Source: Planctomycetota bacterium (GTDB taxonomy: Bacteria; Planctomycetota; UBA1135; GCA-002686595). Taken from it: 64,000 nt of DNA. The stretch is from NCBI GenBank assembly GCA_030746555.1, contig JASLMK010000066.1, forward strand, positions 1 through 64,000, read 5' to 3'. Below are positions 2,700-24,343 of this stretch, piece after piece; the stretch's first letter is position 1, and each line of letters opens with the position of its first letter. The notes beneath the pieces were generated by a model. That model ran no database searches, was not told the DNA's origin, and was given only the letters and a program-made list of their open reading frames with translations. Made by a program: the position numbers and the translations under genes.

Positions 2700-4100
2700 T
2701 CAACGCCCCTCGGCTAGGGCGTCGAGCACACCCCGCTCGTTCCACAGAGCCTCGATGTCCTCACGCGCGCGCGGGATCGCGCCGGTGATGACCTCACAGC
2801 CCTCGGCCGTGATCACGACTACGTCCTCGATGCGGATACCGATGGCGGTCTCCTTCTCGTACAGGCCGGGCTCGATCGTGAAGGCCACCCCGACCTCCAG
2901 CGGCTTGCGCGCGGAGCCGACGTCGTGAACCTCCATGCCGATGTAGTGGGTCGCGGCGTGAGCCAACAGGTCTCCGAACCCGCGCTCGCGCAGGACTTGG
3001 GTGCATGCCGCGTTCACGTCCGCCATGCGCGCGCCCGGCCGGGCCGCCTGGATGCCGGCTTGCTGGGCCGCCAACACGGCGTCGTAGAGCTCCGCCTGGC
3101 GCTCTGTGAAGCGCCCCCCCACCGGCCAAGTGCGGGTGATGTCGGTCGTGTAGTGGTCGAACTCCGGACCGTAGTCGATCAGAACCACATCCCCGTCGCG
3201 CATCACCCGGTCGTTGGCGCTGTAGTGCAGGATCAGGGAGTTGGGGCCCGAGCCCACGATCGGGTGGTAGGCGGCCCCCGCCGCTCCCGCGCGTCGGTGC
3301 ATCCAGCCCATCAGGGCGTCGAGATCCCACTCCCCCAGCCCCGGGCGCGTGGAACGGATGGCCTCGTTCATGCCCGCCACACCCGCCAAGGCCGCTCGGC
3401 GCATGGCTTCGACCTCCTCCGGCGTCTTCACCCGACGCAGCTCGTTCAGAGCCGAGGTCGCGTCGCGCGGCTCGCGGCCCAAGCGCTCGGCGAGCGCCGC
3501 GCGGAAGGCGCGCTCGCGGCTGGCCCGTCCGTCGAGCGGATCCGCGGCCCGCGCGCGATCGGCGGGAATCGCCCGATCGAAGCAGTCTCCCAGCTCGATG
3601 TAGGGGTGCATGGAGATCCACACCACGCGGTCGGCACCGGCCATCTCCTCGAGGGCCTCGTCCAACTCCTTGTTCGAGCGCACCTCAGCGAACCCGGTGA
3701 CCGGCTCGACCCACTCGTCGCCGACATCCCACAGCTCCCCCTCCCAGGCCTCCTTCCAGGGGTTGGCGTCGCGCAGGAAGAGCACCTCCCTGCCGCTCTC
3801 GATGTCCATCAACAACGCCGCGCCGGGGCTCTCGATGCCCGTCAGGTACCAGAACGTCTTGTCCTGTCGGAACGCGTGGTAGCCGCGGGTCTCGCCGAGG
3901 CCGCGGATCACGAACACCCCTTCGGCGAGCTCCTCGCGTAGCCGCGCGCGGCGGCTGGCGTGGAACTCCTTGCCGAGCCCGCAGACCGCGGCCCGCGGCG
4001 GGCTCGCGGCGGGCTCGGATTCCTGGACGGCGGGGGAGGAGGGGGACAGGCCCGCGAGGGCCAGGGCTGCGGCGACCGCGATCGGGATGGAGTTGGTCAT
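2700..4100 (-). CDS. Secreted/periplasmic Xaa-Pro aminopeptidase (M24B family)
   Basis: A metallopeptidase of the pita-bread fold that removes an N-terminal residue preceding proline. The 466-residue product has a signal peptide (MTNSIPIAVAAALALAGLS), an N-terminal aminopeptidase P-type domain (about 45-200: GYHAFRQDKTFWYLTGI, FLRDANPWKEAWEG) and a catalytic domain with all five expected metal ligands: Asp in VLIDYGPEF, Asp in TTDITRTW, His in GMEVHDVG, Glu in TIEPGLYE and Glu in RIEDVV. Cytoplasmic PepP enzymes lack a leader, so this one probably acts on exported peptides. It is divergent from sfsA with only 32 bases between the start codons. The exact substrate is unknown. Confidence 0.9.
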   Translation of the reverse strand: MTNSIPIAVAAALALAGLSPSSPAVQESEPAASPPRAAVCGLGKEFHASRRARLREELAEGVFVIRGLGETRGYHAFRQDKTFWYLTGIESPGAALLMDIESGREVLFLRDANPWKEAWEGELWDVGDEWVEPVTGFAEVRSNKELDEALEEMAGADRVVWISMHPYIELGDCFDRAIPADRARAADPLDGRASRERAFRAALAERLGREPRDATSALNELRRVKTPEEVEAMRRAALAGVAGMNEAIRSTRPGLGEWDLDALMGWMHRRAGAAGAAYHPIVGSGPNSLILHYSANDRVMRDGDVVLIDYGPEFDHYTTDITRTWPVGGRFTERQAELYDAVLAAQQAGIQAARPGARMADVNAACTQVLRERGFGDLLAHAATHYIGMEVHDVGSARKPLEVGVAFTIEPGLYEKETAIGIRIEDVVVITAEGCEVITGAIPRAREDIEALWNERGVLDALAEGR

Positions 4101-4120
4101 GATCCGCGCCAGAATACCCG

Positions 4121-4126
4121 TACACT
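4121..4126 (+). promoter_or_regulatory. Putative -10 element for sfsA (leaderless transcript)
   Basis: TACACT ends six bases before the GTG start of sfsA, so transcription would begin at or next to the start codon. The only space between the divergent starts at 4100 and 4133 is 32 bases. TACACT recurs upstream of feoA (19779) and of the CBS gene (37134). No clear -35 is visible. Confidence 0.4.
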
Positions 4127-4132
4127 GCGCCC

Positions 4133-4831
4133 GTGCGCATCGACAAGCCCGTGCTGGAGGGGCGGCTGCGGCGGCGCTACAAGCGCTTCCTGGCCGACGT
4201 GGAGGTCGCCGGAGGCGAACAGTTGACGGTCCACTGCCCCAATCCTGGCCGCCTCCAAGGCTGCCTGGGCGACGACACCGAGGTGATCCTGCGCGACAGC
4301 CAGGACGGCAGCCGCAAGCTGCGCTACACCCTCCAGACCGTGCGCGTGGGACGACACTGGGTGAACGTCGACACCTCCCTGCCCAACGCGGTCGTTGCCG
4401 AGGCGGTCGAGGCGGGCGCGATCGAGGAGCTGTCGGGCTACGACTCCCTGCGGCGCGAGGTCCCCTACGGCCGCAACAGCCGGATCGACCTCCTGCTCGA
4501 GCGCCCCGGAGAGCGCTGCTACGTCGAGGTCAAGTGCACGACGCTCGTGGAGCACCGCGTGGCGATGTTCCCCGACGCCGTCACCGCCCGTGGACTCAAG
4601 CACCTCGAGGAGCTCTCGCGCATGGTGGCCGAGGGACACCGCGCGCTGATGTTCTACTTCATCAGTCGTGGAGACGCGCGGCGCTTCGAGCCGGCCGACC
4701 ACATCGACCCGGCCTACGGCGAGGGCCTGCGGGCGGCGGTCGCCGCCGGTGTCGAGGCCATCGCCTACTCCGCCCGCGTCAGCCCCGCGCGCCTCGAGCT
4801 CGGCCCGCCGGTCAAGATCACCCTGCCCTGA
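4133..4831 (+). CDS. sfsA: SfsA family DNA/RNA nuclease-like protein
   Basis: The 232-residue product matches the SfsA family over its full length: N-terminal OB-like part with HCPNPGRLQGCL, then a PD-(D/E)XK-type nuclease core (RIDLLLERPGERCYVEVKC, with the catalytic Asp, Glu-Val-Lys pattern) and the C-terminal ALMFYFISRGDARRFEPAD. The name comes from sugar fermentation stimulation in E. coli; its cellular role is poorly understood. The start is GTG at 4133 and it ends in TGA. Transcription is probably leaderless (see the -10 at 4121). It converges with the membrane protein gene at 4890 across a hairpin. Confidence in family is high, in function low. Confidence 0.9.
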   Translation: MRIDKPVLEGRLRRRYKRFLADVEVAGGEQLTVHCPNPGRLQGCLGDDTEVILRDSQDGSRKLRYTLQTVRVGRHWVNVDTSLPNAVVAEAVEAGAIEELSGYDSLRREVPYGRNSRIDLLLERPGERCYVEVKCTTLVEHRVAMFPDAVTARGLKHLEELSRMVAEGHRALMFYFISRGDARRFEPADHIDPAYGEGLRAAVAAGVEAIAYSARVSPARLELGPPVKITLP

Positions 4832-4836
4832 GCGGG

Positions 4837-4893
4837 CTAGACAGAACTGTAATCCACGGCCTTGAGGAAGACCGCTCCACCCATTCTGTCTAG
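4837..4893. terminator. CTAG-bounded inverted repeat between convergent genes
   Basis: A perfect 10-bp inverted repeat (CTAGACAGAA at 4837-4846, TTCTGTCTAG at 4884-4893) with a 37-base spacer fills the gap between the convergent sfsA and the 4890 gene. The right CTAG supplies the TAG stop of the minus-strand gene. The placement suggests a bidirectional terminator; the small AT-richer arms contrast with the surroundings. Confidence 0.45.
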
Positions 4894-5984
4894 AGTGCGA
4901 CCTCGTAGTCGTCGGTCGCTCCCGCGATCGGGTAGCGCGGCCCGCCGGGCCCGCCCACACTCTGCTTCCAGGGATCCGGCCGCGACAAGGGCCTCACGAC
5001 CGCCCGGCTGACCACGGCGGCGGCGTGGTAGCGCGCACCGCGGGTCACCACGCGCCACATCATGACGACCCCGCCGAGCGCCGGCAGGGCGACCCAGCGC
5101 ACGAGCGCGGGATCGTCGGCAAGGCGCGCCTCGATACCCCCCGACAACAGCGAGGCGGCGGCGATCACCGCCCCCTCGACGAGCATCAGGGCCAGCATCG
5201 GCCGCAGGGTCTGGACCGGGTGGCGCAGCATCGTGGCGAGCGTCCACAGGCCGGCGCCGAGTGCCGAGCGGGTGTCGTGCAGGGCGATCCGCGTGCGGCT
5301 GTAGTCCGCCCAGGTGAGCGTGAGGCCGAAGGCCACCGCCATGAGGGCCGCCTGAACGGCCCCGACGAGCCAGGCTCCCCACTCTGAGTCGAGGGTCTCC
5401 AGGCGCTCGTGGTCGAAGGCCTCCACACCCAGCCAGCCCTCGAGGACGAGGCGCTCCCAAGGCAGCTCGTGGAGCAGCCAACCCCACAGCGACAGGACGA
5501 GCAGGCTCATCACCATGACGCGAGTGAAACGCCAGAAGTAGCAGGAGCCGCCGTAGAAGAAGCGCCGCAGGGAGTGGCCTTCGGTGCGCTCGAGGATGAT
5601 CTGCAACCAGCCGCCCGCGCAGAACACGCCGAAGAGCATCATGAGCAGGGCCGCCACCGCGCCCTGGCGGCTGGTTGCGCCGCCGAGCAGGTCCAGCTCC
5701 GCGCTGTGGTCGGTGCGGAAGGCCGGATCGACGCGGTCGGGGGCTTCGGGCAGCGCCCCGAGGGTGTAGACCATGCTCCCCGGCTCGTAGCGATGGTCGA
5801 GCGCCTGCTCGTACCAGCCGAACTGTGAGTAGGAGACGGCCAGGGCCAGGACGGTCGTTACCGCCCAGATCAGCATCCAGATCGGCGTGCGCCCGATCGC
5901 GGCGTTGAGGGCGCGCAGGAACAAGAAGCGCTCGACGAGCGAGGCCTTGCGGGGGGCCGGAGCGGTGGGAGCCGGTGCGTCCAT
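4890..5984 (-). CDS. Polytopic inner-membrane protein of unknown function
   Basis: The family is not recognised. The start at 5984 (MDAPAPTAPAPRKASLVERF) lies one base after the stop of the upstream M1 peptidase gene, so the two are surely co-transcribed and translationally coupled. The 364-residue product has about six hydrophobic segments: TPIWMLIWAVTTVLALAVS near 35, AALLMMLFGVFCAGGWL near 115, RVMVMSLLVLSLWGWLL near 165, AVQAALMAVAFGLTLTWA near 215, and two more near 255-325. A soluble loop of about 40 residues follows the first segment. ABC-2-type or sensor functions are conceivable but nothing in the sequence decides. The context suggests a partner of the exported peptidase. Confidence 0.75.
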   Translation of the reverse strand: MDAPAPTAPAPRKASLVERFLFLRALNAAIGRTPIWMLIWAVTTVLALAVSYSQFGWYEQALDHRYEPGSMVYTLGALPEAPDRVDPAFRTDHSAELDLLGGATSRQGAVAALLMMLFGVFCAGGWLQIILERTEGHSLRRFFYGGSCYFWRFTRVMVMSLLVLSLWGWLLHELPWERLVLEGWLGVEAFDHERLETLDSEWGAWLVGAVQAALMAVAFGLTLTWADYSRTRIALHDTRSALGAGLWTLATMLRHPVQTLRPMLALMLVEGAVIAAASLLSGGIEARLADDPALVRWVALPALGGVVMMWRVVTRGARYHAAAVVSRAVVRPLSRPDPWKQSVGGPGGPRYPIAGATDDYEVAL

Positions 5985-5985
5985 C

Positions 5986-8571
5986 TCAGCCTCCCAAGCC
6001 CGCGAAGAAGTGCAGGAGGTGTGTGTACTGATGGAAGACGCGCTCCGACCAGCGCAGGGGAGCGAGGTCGTCGGCCTCGTGGAACCACTGGTTGTCCGAC
6101 ATGTCCGCGTCGAGGTAGTAGACGCGCTTGGGATCGAGGACGACCGACCGCACTCGTCTGTCCGGCGGCAGCTCCATCCTCCACCGCAGCCAGGTCCGCT
6201 CCAGCTGCTGCTCACGGGTCCAGGTGAAGTCGAGCACCTCCTCGCCGCCGCCGGCGTCGCCGACGGGTTCGAGGGTCACGCGCCACTCCAGTGGCAAGCA
6301 CAGATCGCCCTTGCGGCGCAGGAGGACGCTCGCCACGCGGGGGTTCTCCTCCTCCTCCGCGGGGGGCTCTGGCGCCTCGGCGGCGACCTCGTCGGGGGCG
6401 CCCTCCTCGTCTGGGCCACCGTCCGCCGGTCCCGTCTCGGTCGCGGGATCGTCCCCGTTCGAGCGCCCGCGCTCCTCGAAGCCGCCCTCCGCCAGGGGAA
6501 AGTAGCCCAGCTCGTCTCGCGCCTTGGCCTGGGAGACCTCGACGCTGTAGTCCACGGTCTTGGTGCTCTCGAAGGCGTCTTCGAGGTACCAGCCGACGTC
6601 CACGCCCGCCCCCTCCTGGAAGGCCGCGTAGAAGTCCGCGGGATAGGGATGGCGGTAGCGCCAAGCGCTCGCGTAGTGGCGCATGCCCGCCAGGAACGCG
6701 TCCCGCCCCACCAGGCCGGACAGGGTGCGCAGGGCGACCGCCGGCCGCGGGTAGCTGTTGGTGCGGTAGCTCATCCGATCCACGTACTCCCAGCCGTGGG
6801 TCGCGATCGGATCCGAGTCGGAGTCGCGCAGGTAGCCTGCGCGGTCGCCCCAGCGCGGGTCTGACCACTGGGGAACCAGGGTCAACAGCGGCTGGTCCCG
6901 CCACCAGTCAACGAAGCCGCTGGAGCGCACGGGGCGGGAGAAGACCCGGCCGACGGCCCTGGCGTGCCAGAAGTCGGGGATCCAGTCGGTGCTCCAGCGC
7001 GCAGCGGTGAGGGCGCTCCCCAGGCGCCCGCCCCCCGGCAACGGGGCGACGCGCCGGCCGGAGAAGGGCACGCCGACGTAGCTCGTGGTGTCCCGGCGCG
7101 GCCCGTAGACGCGCCACAGCGCTTCCGAGTCCGCGTAGGAGTTGAAGCCCTCGTCCAACCAGGCCGCCTCGAACTCGTTGTTCCCCACCAGCCCGTACCA
7201 GAACTGATGGCCGCACTCGTGGACGGTCACGCTCTCGGGCCGGTACATGTCCTCGGTCGTGAAGAGCGACGTCCCGCAGGTGAACAGGGTCGGGTACTCC
7301 ATCCCGCCCGCTCCCCCGCCGCCCCAAGCTGGATCCACGACGGTCACCTGCTCGTAGGGGTACTCGCCGAACCACAGCCCGTAGAAGTACAGGCCCGTGC
7401 TGGTGGCCTCGAAGTGGCGCTCGGCCTGGCCGGAGTGCTCGGGCTGGACGAGCACGCGCACGTTCACGTCCCGCAGGCGCAGGGGCTTGCCGGCAGCGCG
7501 CTCGGCGTGCTCCTGCTCCTTGGGAAACCGCGCCCTCCAGTCCTCGAAGCGGAACTCGAAGTCGTGGACCTCGTAGTCGGGGTCCGCCGTCCAGGTGAAG
7601 TCGTGCACGAGCGGGAGCTTCTCAAACTCGTCGGCCCGCAACCGGTCGAGGGGCGAGGGCGCCTCGAAGACCGCCTCGACGCGATCCTCGCGGACGGCCT
7701 GGTCCACGCGCACGCCCGAACCGGCGATGCGGTCGGCGTAGGCGACGGGCAGGTCGAGGGCCACGCGGTAGGTCCCGTAGTTGGAGTAGAACTCGGTGGA
7801 GGCGTGGAACTGGTGGCAGTTCCAGCCCCGCCCGCGCTCGTAGACGCCGAGCTTGGGGAACCACTGGGCCACGAACAGGAACTCGTCCTTGGTGCCGGTC
7901 CGACGGCGCACGCGCGGCAACTGGGAGTTCCACTCGATCTCGATCTCCGCGGTCTGGCCGTCGATGATCTCGCGCGGTAGGTCCACGCTCAGGACGCTGC
8001 GGTCCTGCTCGCGGACGAAACCCTCCCCCTCCGCCGCGGCCTCCCAGGTGTCGGGCTGGCGGAAGCGCATCGTCGAGGTGACGTCGACGCCGTCGACGCG
8101 CACTTTGGTGACCTCCTGCCAGCCGAACCACCACTCGCGATTGACGTCGGAGACAGACCTCCCGCGCAGGTTGCTCCCCGCGCCGATCATGTGGGTCGAG
8201 CGGTTGTTGGAGAAGGCGTTCAGGTACAGGTGGAACCAAAGGTCGGAGACGCTCTCCCCGCTCTGGTTGGTCCAAGTCAGGAGCTCTGATCCCTCCAGGC
8301 GCCAGCGCGTGAGCCCGCCGTCGCCTTCACCGGCCTCCTCGAGGCGGGCGCCGATCTCGTAGTCCACGCGCGAGGAGCGGCCGTCGCGCCCCCTCGGGGC
8401 GGCCTCGGGGGCTGGCGCCGGCGGCTCGGCGGGGGCGGATTCGGCGGCCTCGTCGGCCTTCTCGGCCTCCTCGATCGGCGCCGGCTCCTGGACCGCCCCC
8501 GAGTGAGGGCAGAGCAGGGCGAGGGCACAAAGACCCGCGCGCAGGAGTGTCGGGTCGGGCTGCGCTGTCAT
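5986..8571 (-). CDS. Exported M1 family zinc metallopeptidase
   Basis: A gluzincin aminopeptidase-like protein of 861 residues. It has an N-terminal signal sequence (MTAQPDPTLLRAGLCALALLC), a Pro/Ala/Glu-rich linker to residue ~70, a beta-rich M1 N-domain, and the catalytic core with GGMEYP (in place of GAMEN), the zinc site HECGHQFWYG (HEXXH), and WLDEGFNSYAD carrying the third zinc ligand Glu. A long C-terminal part has an acidic, Glu/Ala/Pro-rich insert (near 720-760) and ends close to the membrane gene with a TGA-G-ATG junction. The start at 8571 was chosen because the signal peptide begins there; the frame stays open upstream by chance in GC-rich DNA. It is divergent from the signalling operon at 8798. 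Confidence 0.88.
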   Translation of the reverse strand: MTAQPDPTLLRAGLCALALLCPHSGAVQEPAPIEEAEKADEAAESAPAEPPAPAPEAAPRGRDGRSSRVDYEIGARLEEAGEGDGGLTRWRLEGSELLTWTNQSGESVSDLWFHLYLNAFSNNRSTHMIGAGSNLRGRSVSDVNREWWFGWQEVTKVRVDGVDVTSTMRFRQPDTWEAAAEGEGFVREQDRSVLSVDLPREIIDGQTAEIEIEWNSQLPRVRRRTGTKDEFLFVAQWFPKLGVYERGRGWNCHQFHASTEFYSNYGTYRVALDLPVAYADRIAGSGVRVDQAVREDRVEAVFEAPSPLDRLRADEFEKLPLVHDFTWTADPDYEVHDFEFRFEDWRARFPKEQEHAERAAGKPLRLRDVNVRVLVQPEHSGQAERHFEATSTGLYFYGLWFGEYPYEQVTVVDPAWGGGGAGGMEYPTLFTCGTSLFTTEDMYRPESVTVHECGHQFWYGLVGNNEFEAAWLDEGFNSYADSEALWRVYGPRRDTTSYVGVPFSGRRVAPLPGGGRLGSALTAARWSTDWIPDFWHARAVGRVFSRPVRSSGFVDWWRDQPLLTLVPQWSDPRWGDRAGYLRDSDSDPIATHGWEYVDRMSYRTNSYPRPAVALRTLSGLVGRDAFLAGMRHYASAWRYRHPYPADFYAAFQEGAGVDVGWYLEDAFESTKTVDYSVEVSQAKARDELGYFPLAEGGFEERGRSNGDDPATETGPADGGPDEEGAPDEVAAEAPEPPAEEEENPRVASVLLRRKGDLCLPLEWRVTLEPVGDAGGGEEVLDFTWTREQQLERTWLRWRMELPPDRRVRSVVLDPKRVYYLDADMSDNQWFHEADDLAPLRWSERVFHQYTHLLHFFAGLGG

Positions 8572-22255: not shown

Positions 22256-22445
22256 TCATGAAGACGTGCACCAGACACAGCAACTCGGTTCCTGGTGGTG
22301 CTTTGCGGGTTCTGGCGACGCAGGCGACCCTGAACGGGTCGTCGAGGAAGCCAGGTTCTCATAAAGCGCCGCCATGGGCCGAGAGGCCGTCGAAGACGGC
22401 CGGTTGCGAAGTCTGGTGTGCGTGTTCATGAATCATCCGGGCTAG
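22252..22445. repeat. Palindromic dispersed element, copy 2
   Basis: Nearly identical to copy 1 over about 175 bases (22256-22430), with a few substitutions and a one-base length change near 22358-22365. The left arm lacks the 10-11 bases between CTAG and TCATGAA that copy 1 has. Both ends are CTAG, which supply the stop of feoB (left) and of the DsbD-family gene (right). Again it sits exactly between convergent genes and can fold into one long hairpin. Confidence 0.85.
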
Positions 22446-24343
22446 TCGCCCGCAGCCTCGCGCGCCGCGCGCAGGAACTCCGCGAACCCCTCCGCGTCGA
22501 AGTCCCGTGCGCCGTGCTGGACGCCGAGCTGCTCACCGCTGGCGGGGTCGACGACGACGTAGACCGGCGTGGCGTAGGAGTCGACCATCTCCAGCTCCAG
22601 CCGGCGCACCTCCTCGGGGGTGGGCCCGTCGTTGTGGAGTCGGGCCTCGATCATCGATTCGAGCTCCGCGGCGACCGCCGGGGTGGGGAAGACGGATTGC
22701 TCCATCTGCCGGCAGGCCGCTCACAACTTGCCCGTGAAGTTGATGAACAGCAGCCGCCCTTCGCTCTGGGCGCGGCTGCGCGCGCCCTCGTAGTCGTCCT
22801 CGACGATGGTGTGGGCGGCGCGCGAGCTCATCGCACCCTGTTCGGTCGCGCCCCGCCCGCCGGCCGCGACGGCGTAGCCCGGCGGCGGGCTGATCGCGTA
22901 CATGATCCCCGAAACCTGGTTTCCGCCGGCGCCGTAGAGGCAGTAGACCGCGAACAGCGCCATCGTCAGGCCTCCCACGAGCCTGCCCGGGCTCGAGCCT
23001 CCCGCCTCGTCCGCCTTCAGCTTGATCCAGCCGAACAGGTAGGCGGCTCCGATGAAGAAGATCCCCGCCCACAGCATCAAGAACAGCTCCATCGACAACA
23101 GCTGCCAGTCCCAGGCGATGTCGGCGTTGGAGATGAACTTCATCGCGGCGGCGATCTCGACGAACCCCAGGGAGACCTTGAGGGTGTTCATCCACTCGCC
23201 GCTCTGGGGCATCGAGTGCGCCTTGCCCGGCAGGAGCGAGAGGAAGACGAAAGGAATCGCCATCGTCATGCCGAACACGCCCATGCCCAGGGCGATGCGC
23301 ACGAGGCTTCCGCCCGACGCGCCGACCGAGAGCAGGCTCCCAACGAACGGGGCGGTGCAGGTGAAGGAGGTCACCACCAGTGTCGCGCCCATCAGGAACA
23401 CGCCCGTGTAACCGCCTCTCATGCTCGCCTTGCCCGCGGCGCCCATCAGAAACCGGGGCGGGCGCAGCTCCATGGCGCCGAACAGGACGGCCGCGAAGAG
23501 CAGGAACAACAGACCGATCGCGAGATTGGTGATGGGATGGATGGCGAAGCGGATGATCACGGGCCCGACCACGACGCCGATGGCGATGAAGATCAGGACG
23601 ATCCCCGCTCCATAGGTCAAAGACAGCGGCAAGACCTTGCCCCCCCTCGCGTCCGCCTGCTTGGTGAAGAACGAGATCGTGATCGGGATCATCGGGTAGG
23701 TGCAGGGCATCATCAGGGCGAACAGGCCGCCGCCGACCGCCAGCAGGAGGAACGCCAACAAGCCGCCGCCTTCGTCCTCCTCCGGCTCCCGTGCGACCGG
23801 CTCGGCGGCCGGCTCGGCGGCCGGCTCGTCCGTCTGTCGTGGGAAGTCCGCGAAGACGCTGTCGGGCCCGCGACCGCTCGACTCGACCGTCGTCTGCCAG
23901 GGGATGCAGGAACCGCCCTCGTCGCAGGTCAGGCCCTTGAAGCTCGCCGTGACCGTGGGCAGCTCGCCCCCCTCCGCAAGCGCTCCTTGGGCGTAGAGGA
24001 CGATGTTCCCCTCGTGCCCGAGGATGTAGGTGTCTCCGCCGCCGGCGCCCAGGCCCGGCTGCTCGTAGCGCACGGGCTCGGGGAAGATGACGTTGCCGAA
24101 CTCGACGCCTGGGGCCTCGAGCTGCACGGTGGTCGCCACGCCCACTGCATCGGCGGGCCCGAGGTCGTCGTGGTAGAGGTGCCAGTGGAACTCGATGCGC
24201 ACGCGCATCGCCACCTCCACGCGCTCTCCATCCAGGCGCGAGTACAGCGATACGCGCGCCTTGTCTTGGCGCGCCGAGGCTGAGGCCGACAGGGCGAAAG
24301 CGGTGCACAGGGCCGTCAGGATGGCGGTCTTGGTTCGCGACAT
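22442..24343 (-). CDS. dsbD: DsbD-family thiol:disulfide interchange protein, selenoprotein with U-x-x-C active site
   Basis: Carries electrons from cytoplasmic thioredoxin across the membrane to periplasmic thiols. Domains in order: signal peptide (1-24), DsbD-alpha-like domain with LTCDEGGSCIPW (Cys140, Cys146), a Glu/Pro/Ala linker, an eight-helix-type membrane domain with Cys214 (MPCTYPMIP) and Cys329 (SFTCTAPF), and a C-terminal thioredoxin-like domain. That last domain is interrupted by UGA at 22723-22721: LLFINFTGKL-UGA-AACRQMEQSVF. In relatives the aligned motif is FTGxxCxxCRxMExxVF, so the UGA stands at the first redox Cys. Reading UGA as Sec gives 633 residues and an intact C-terminal domain ending at 22442. 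A conventional reading truncates at 540 residues and leaves a separate 87-residue fragment (from 22705). A SECIS-like hairpin follows. Very likely a true selenoprotein. Confidence 0.9.
22690..22707 (-). promoter_or_regulatory. Putative bacterial SECIS hairpin in the dsbD-family gene
   Basis: The minus strand reads a 7-bp stem (AGATGGA / TCCGTCT, with one T-G wobble) closing a GCAA tetraloop. The loop begins 20 bases after the in-frame UGA and its first base is G, matching the established bacterial SECIS constraints on distance and loop. Confidence 0.7.

Follow-up and report, generated by a model that had tools for sequence, protein, structure and literature searches.

The stretch of planctomycete DNA analyzed in this work (64,000 nt of contig JASLMK010000066.1, hereafter the window) carries a gene that, with a probability of roughly 0.93, encodes a full-length DsbD protein in which the nucleophilic cysteine of the gamma-domain CxxC motif is replaced by selenocysteine (Sec), giving U541-x-x-C544. 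Judging from sequence comparisons, the in-frame UGA codon would be decoded by the SelA, SelB, SelD and tRNA-Sec of the same genome, with a GGUC-looped hairpin (hairpin B) as the most likely SECIS. The original prediction had placed this UGA at the first redox position of a thioredoxin-like motif (FTGKL-U-AACRQME) and stated that the frame remains open for 92 more codons; both statements were borne out, as the frame runs on to a TAG and its continuation completes the Thioredoxin_7 domain (residues 515-600). The features of the gene and of its transcript are summarized in Table 1, where positions with a plus sign are counted in nucleotides downstream of the UGA.

Table 1. Features of the predicted dsbD selenoprotein gene and of the RNA downstream of its UGA codon (window coordinates).
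Feature	Coordinates	Strand	Details and basis
dsbD selenoprotein gene	22442..24343	-	ATG at 24343, UGA as codon 541, TAG at 22442; 633-aa read-through product; homologues align over the full length
DsbD_N (alpha) domain, residues 36-154	23882..24238	-	Pfam PF11412, 27.1 bits (cut-off 25); Cys140 and Cys146 invariant
DsbD_TM (beta) membrane domain, residues 197-405	23129..23755	-	Pfam PF02683, E 1.5e-21; Cys214 and Cys329 invariant
Thioredoxin-like gamma domain (Thioredoxin_7), residues 515-600, with U541-x-x-C544	22544..22801	-	Pfam PF13899, 30.0 bits (cut-off 27)
UGA, predicted Sec codon for residue 541 (counterpart of Cys461 in E. coli DsbD)	22721..22723	-	codon alignment of homologues
Hairpin A (AGAUGGA GCAA UCCGUCU), +14 to +31	22690..22707	-	read as spacer hairpin; selected beyond the protein sequence; compensatory changes
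Hairpin B, proposed SECIS, +39 to +55, GGUC apical loop at +45 to +48 (22676-22673)	22666..22682	-	synonymous null, covariation, MFE

All three domains of the 633-aa product exceed their Pfam cut-offs, and a fold search (Foldseek) with its AlphaFold model (mean pLDDT 70) retrieved DsbD alpha and gamma structures. The alpha domain matched the N-terminal domain of Neisseria DsbD and ScsB, and the beta domain was modeled as a helix bundle with one invariant cysteine in each half. The single gamma domain used as a phmmer query found no match in the PDB, whereas a profile built from 12 homologues matched the E. coli DsbDgamma structures 2fwe and 1uc7 with the CxxC motifs aligned. Cysteines 140, 146, 214, 329 and 544 are all invariant in the homologue alignment. 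The protein hence shows the composition of a DsbD, i.e., an alpha domain with a Cys pair, a membrane-embedded beta domain and a gamma domain of thioredoxin fold, the first gamma Cys being the predicted Sec (UxxC).

The conservation of the UGA was examined in 85 distinct homologues covering the site, which came from a survey of 81 genomes of the same family (77 with a match) and from named genome records, all of them of Planctomycetota. The aligned codon is TGA in 79 (the window gene and 78 other close homologues), TGC in five and TGT in one, and neither TAA nor TAG occurs at this position in any of the 85. Whether they carry UGA or Cys at this codon, these homologues run through the site as one protein, which speaks against a thioredoxin part that is always encoded separately. 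The 78 homologues sharing the UGA include a separately assembled genome from the same genus and the closed chromosomes of the isolates Pla86 (CP036296), Pla163 (CP036290) and Poly30 (CP036434); a sequencing error, such as a misread Cys codon, was therefore ruled out as its source. Among 294 genomes drawn from across the phylum, the in-frame TGA recurred down to about 30% identity, and the 153 distinct Planctomycetota homologues comprised 131 U and 22 C forms and nothing else. The U form was found in at least 26 family-level groups, and parsimony on a FastTree tree, in which the root and the direction of switches are not fixed, gave a minimum of 12 Sec/Cys switches. The alignment of the in-frame UGA with a conserved Cys of homologues is a hallmark of bacterial selenoproteins, and at the level of sequence Sec-DsbD is a common selenoprotein of the whole phylum Planctomycetota rather than an oddity of a single genome.

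Codon comparisons indicate that the segment following the UGA is under purifying selection. The window gene and that of a congener (L022) are 84% identical across the 92 post-UGA codons (dN 0.11, dS 0.47), and other close pairs gave dN/dS values of 0.04-0.27 downstream of the UGA; the median for all pairs (0.61) was set aside, since it includes saturated pairs.

A search of the source genome (4.0 Mb, 91% complete) for selA, selB, selC and selD, proposed earlier as a check, yielded all four genes. The tRNA-Sec (selC) has the anticodon TCA and scored over the cut-off (72.3 bits), SelA reached 484 bits, SelB 323.8 bits when neighbouring pieces are counted (cut-off 242), and SelD 328 bits, its own gene holding one in-frame TGA. 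Among the 81 genomes of the same family, selA was detected in 76 and selB over the cut-off in 73, and in the rest of the phylum selA accompanied a UGA-containing dsbD in 59 of 62 genomes. It was also present in 14 of the 16 tested genomes of the phylum with a Cys-type dsbD, so the Cys versions are not simply markers of machinery loss, and the explanation that they arose where the Sec machinery had been lost found no support.

Two additional observations concern the genes of this family and lineage. The Cys versions of dsbD found within the family (L045, L048, L051, L053, L054 and L059) have no GGUC hairpin, and most of their genomes retain selA and selB. Moreover, selD of the window lineage (L017, L261-L289) also contains an in-frame UGA, and a hairpin carrying a GGU-type loop at about +33 lies behind a small GC hairpin, a layout similar to that of dsbD.

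The RNA downstream of the UGA forms two predicted hairpins. The first of them, the 7-bp hairpin A with its GCAA loop at +21 to +24, had been proposed as the SECIS; it does exist at that place, and it is not the best candidate for this function. Considered alone it is weak evidence, as the 50-nt stretch containing it folds only 1.07 SD better than shuffled sequences and its loop lacks the G[G/U] typical of the bSECIS model. Hairpin B of the window, missed by the original prediction, presents a GGUC loop on a 4-bp stem, extended by 2 bp past a bulge. Among the 79 UGA sequences, 66 contain a hairpin with a GGUC tetraloop and a stem of 4 bp or more. Synonymous recoding, repeated 200 times, gave 6.8 such sequences on average and 15 at most, and none of the six Cys homologues has the hairpin; in the 13 other UGA sequences the loop is a 5-nt G/U loop located at +25 or +45. 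Both hairpins of the +45 class fold better than expected from the encoded protein, with an MFE of -10.3 for B (synonymous null -7.0, sd 0.36; average of Cys homologues -4.9) and -9.5 for A (synonymous null -6.6, sd 0.25; average of Cys homologues -6.0), the set of 66 sequences used in this test still holding two rows of the +21 class (L072 and L075), which were removed afterwards.

Ungapped alignment of the resulting 64 sequences showed pairing in 90.5% of the cells of the A and B helices and double-sided changes in 43 cells, compared with 9.8 in shuffles (none of the 500 shuffles reached 43); shifting the pairing partners lowered the pairing to 43-66%. RNAalifold recovered the helices of A and B unaided. 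When the window RNA was folded from +13, i.e., outside the ribosome, its MFE structure consisted of exactly A plus B (-18.0 kcal/mol), and hairpin B was present in the MFE structures of all 64 sequences of the +45 class. For the whole window RNA from the UGA on, a longer competing pairing is favoured (-29.5 vs -14.4 kcal/mol for A plus B), so that the two hairpins form the MFE structure only when the first approximately 12 nt, expected to be covered by the ribosome, are omitted. A generic folding-energy test gave modestly stronger folding in UGA than in Cys homologues (p = 0.009), with a phylum-wide excess that is real but weak.

GGUC is the apical sequence of the E. coli fdhF SECIS, which resembles hairpin B also in being a stable hairpin downstream of the UGA; it differs in that the loop lies at +45 here, instead of about +19 to +22, and in that a second conserved hairpin is placed in between. 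The GGUC hairpin would supply the downstream SECIS element expected of a bacterial selenoprotein gene. Compared with the standard bSECIS model (G[G/U] in an apical loop of 3-9 nt, a stem of 4-16 bp, 16-37 nt from the UGA; PMC13188914), hairpin B agrees in loop and stem but not in spacing, which places the +45 class outside the published model.

The distance between the UGA and the GGUC loop varies among the relatives. The loop starts at +45 in 64 of the 79 sequences; in one genus, which includes Poly30, it is found at +21 in the near hairpin and hairpin B is absent, and the near-hairpin GGUC at +21 recurs in some other families. Other sequences have the loop at +25 or +39, and the standard spacing is observed in the +21 and +25 clades. 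In three congeners (L056, L057 and L060) a GGU-containing loop in A co-occurs with GGUC in B, and these may be intermediates of a SECIS shift.

Three other readings of these data were weighed. The UGA might be a true stop, leaving a truncated DsbD composed of the alpha and membrane domains, with the thioredoxin part being either a relic or a separate product starting at the internal ATG at 22705. An 87-aa ORF does begin at this ATG, and selenium shortage would end part of translation at the UGA, as is known for other selenoproteins. However, such a separate product would wholly lack the redox motif, purifying selection persists past the UGA, the Cys homologues are continuous across the site where TAA and TAG never appear, and the RNA hairpins track the UGA; we consider this reading very improbable. 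Still less probable is that the UGA is read as an ordinary amino acid (e.g., Trp) owing to a code change or suppression. The frame is indeed open across the codon, but homologues without the UGA always have Cys at this residue, the genome encodes complete Sec machinery, and UGA, in agreement with the original prediction, acts as a normal stop in the vicinity, ending eight of the 12 neighbouring gene frames inspected and being internal to the dsbD frame only. A code change was rejected on account of this stop usage.

The third reading accepts Sec-DsbD but assigns the SECIS function to hairpin A near the UGA, with hairpin B as an accessory. Hairpin A lies within the published spacing and is both selected and covarying, and the near hairpins with GGUC at +21 likewise point in its direction. 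On the other hand, the loop of A varies freely within the +45 class, in which nearly all B loops read GGUC, and wherever the near hairpin carries GGUC, B is absent. We regard this assignment as unlikely, and the idea of hairpin A as the sole SECIS was downgraded, given the lack of loop conservation across the +45 class.

Keeping hairpin B as the preferred SECIS of the window gene, we lean towards a two-part bacterial element, in which a covarying spacer (A) would precede the GGUC hairpin (B) that binds SelB at +45. The recognised loop would have moved among positions +21, +25, +39 and +45 of a single orthologous gene, and SelB of this lineage would thus read its signal at a variable distance. 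Hairpin A, located between the UGA and B, would probably act as a compact spacer that lets ribosome-bound SelB reach B.

In the DsbD family, cytoplasmic thioredoxin supplies electrons, which the membrane domain relays to gamma and gamma in turn to alpha. By analogy, they would be transferred here from thioredoxin to the membrane pair C214/C329 and on to U541/C544, from which the alpha pair C140/C146 and finally the periplasmic acceptors would be reduced. In E. coli DsbD, the first gamma cysteine (Cys461) has a pKa of 10.6, a value raised by the residues Asp455 and Glu468 (PMC3961690). A selenol at position 541 would be ionised at neutral pH, so that the likely advantages are a quicker attack on the disulfide of the alpha domain or a readier return from the oxidised state; Sec would probably speed the gamma-to-alpha step or raise its resistance to oxidation. 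The system may, as suggested earlier, be a strong-reductant version of the periplasmic thiol pathway.

Comparison with E. coli DsbD (PRK00293/NF001419) revealed the same order of alpha, membrane and gamma domains, all three redox pairs, and a conserved acidic residue at +7 (E548, corresponding to Glu468). The differences include Sec at the start of the gamma CxxC and the residue located six positions before it, which is Asn535 (Asn being invariant in the 12-sequence alignment A1) as opposed to Asp455. The latter position showed no clear link with the U/C state, since Asn occurs in both U and Cys versions of the family and Asp in many distant ones. The window protein scored below the NCBIfam DsbD cut-off (124.8 vs 330), and it reached the cut-off of no NCBIfam model.

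One of the closest previously reported selenoprotein domains belongs to cd02953, the DsbDgamma model. The GOS survey of 2008 listed under this model 22 sequences of 'Trx-like 2 (thiol disulfide interchange protein)' selenoproteins with UxxC (PMC2398784), i.e., the same kind of domain with the same motif, so a UxxC domain of the DsbD-gamma type had already been predicted. These are domains in short marine reads, and the table of that survey gives no full-length DsbD architecture, lineage or SECIS (PMC2398784); some of the reads may represent planctomycete DsbD. Another related protein is TsoB, a rhodanese/DsbD fusion-like selenoprotein (NF045694), whose DsbD-type membrane domain matches residues 170-406 of the window protein. 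It differs by its UxxxxU motif with two Sec residues (PMC13188914), and the window protein falls far below its threshold (124.6 vs 805 bits). Among the 119 families of prokaryotic selenoproteins inventoried in 2026, none is listed as a full-length DsbD with UxxC, the nearest entries being TsoB and a 'thiol:disulfide interchange protein' (PF13098, UxxC). Within the open-access literature, we found neither a full-length Sec-DsbD nor its phylum-wide spread or a displaced two-hairpin SECIS.

The predicted Sec-DsbD would add a full-length core protein of periplasmic electron transfer to the selenoproteome. Automatic annotation tends to call UGA-containing dsbD genes truncated, and as long as they are read in this way, annotations of the reductive pathway in such bacteria would be wrong. 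With the natural Sec/Cys pairs it becomes possible to ask what Sec contributes to a DsbD whose E. coli Cys version has an unusually high pKa, and the moving SECIS makes testable how far from the UGA SelB acts.

Minor observations were also made on the architecture and neighbourhood of the gene. One homologue (L118, about 3900-6304) has two tandem DsbD_N-like domains ahead of the membrane domain, where the window gene has one, and second N-terminal matches just upstream in many genomes of the family suggest that DsbD_N duplication is common. When the window segment 24433-28562 is compared with L118, the gene order ribonucleotide reductase, small gene, cation diffusion facilitator and dsbD looks to be kept.
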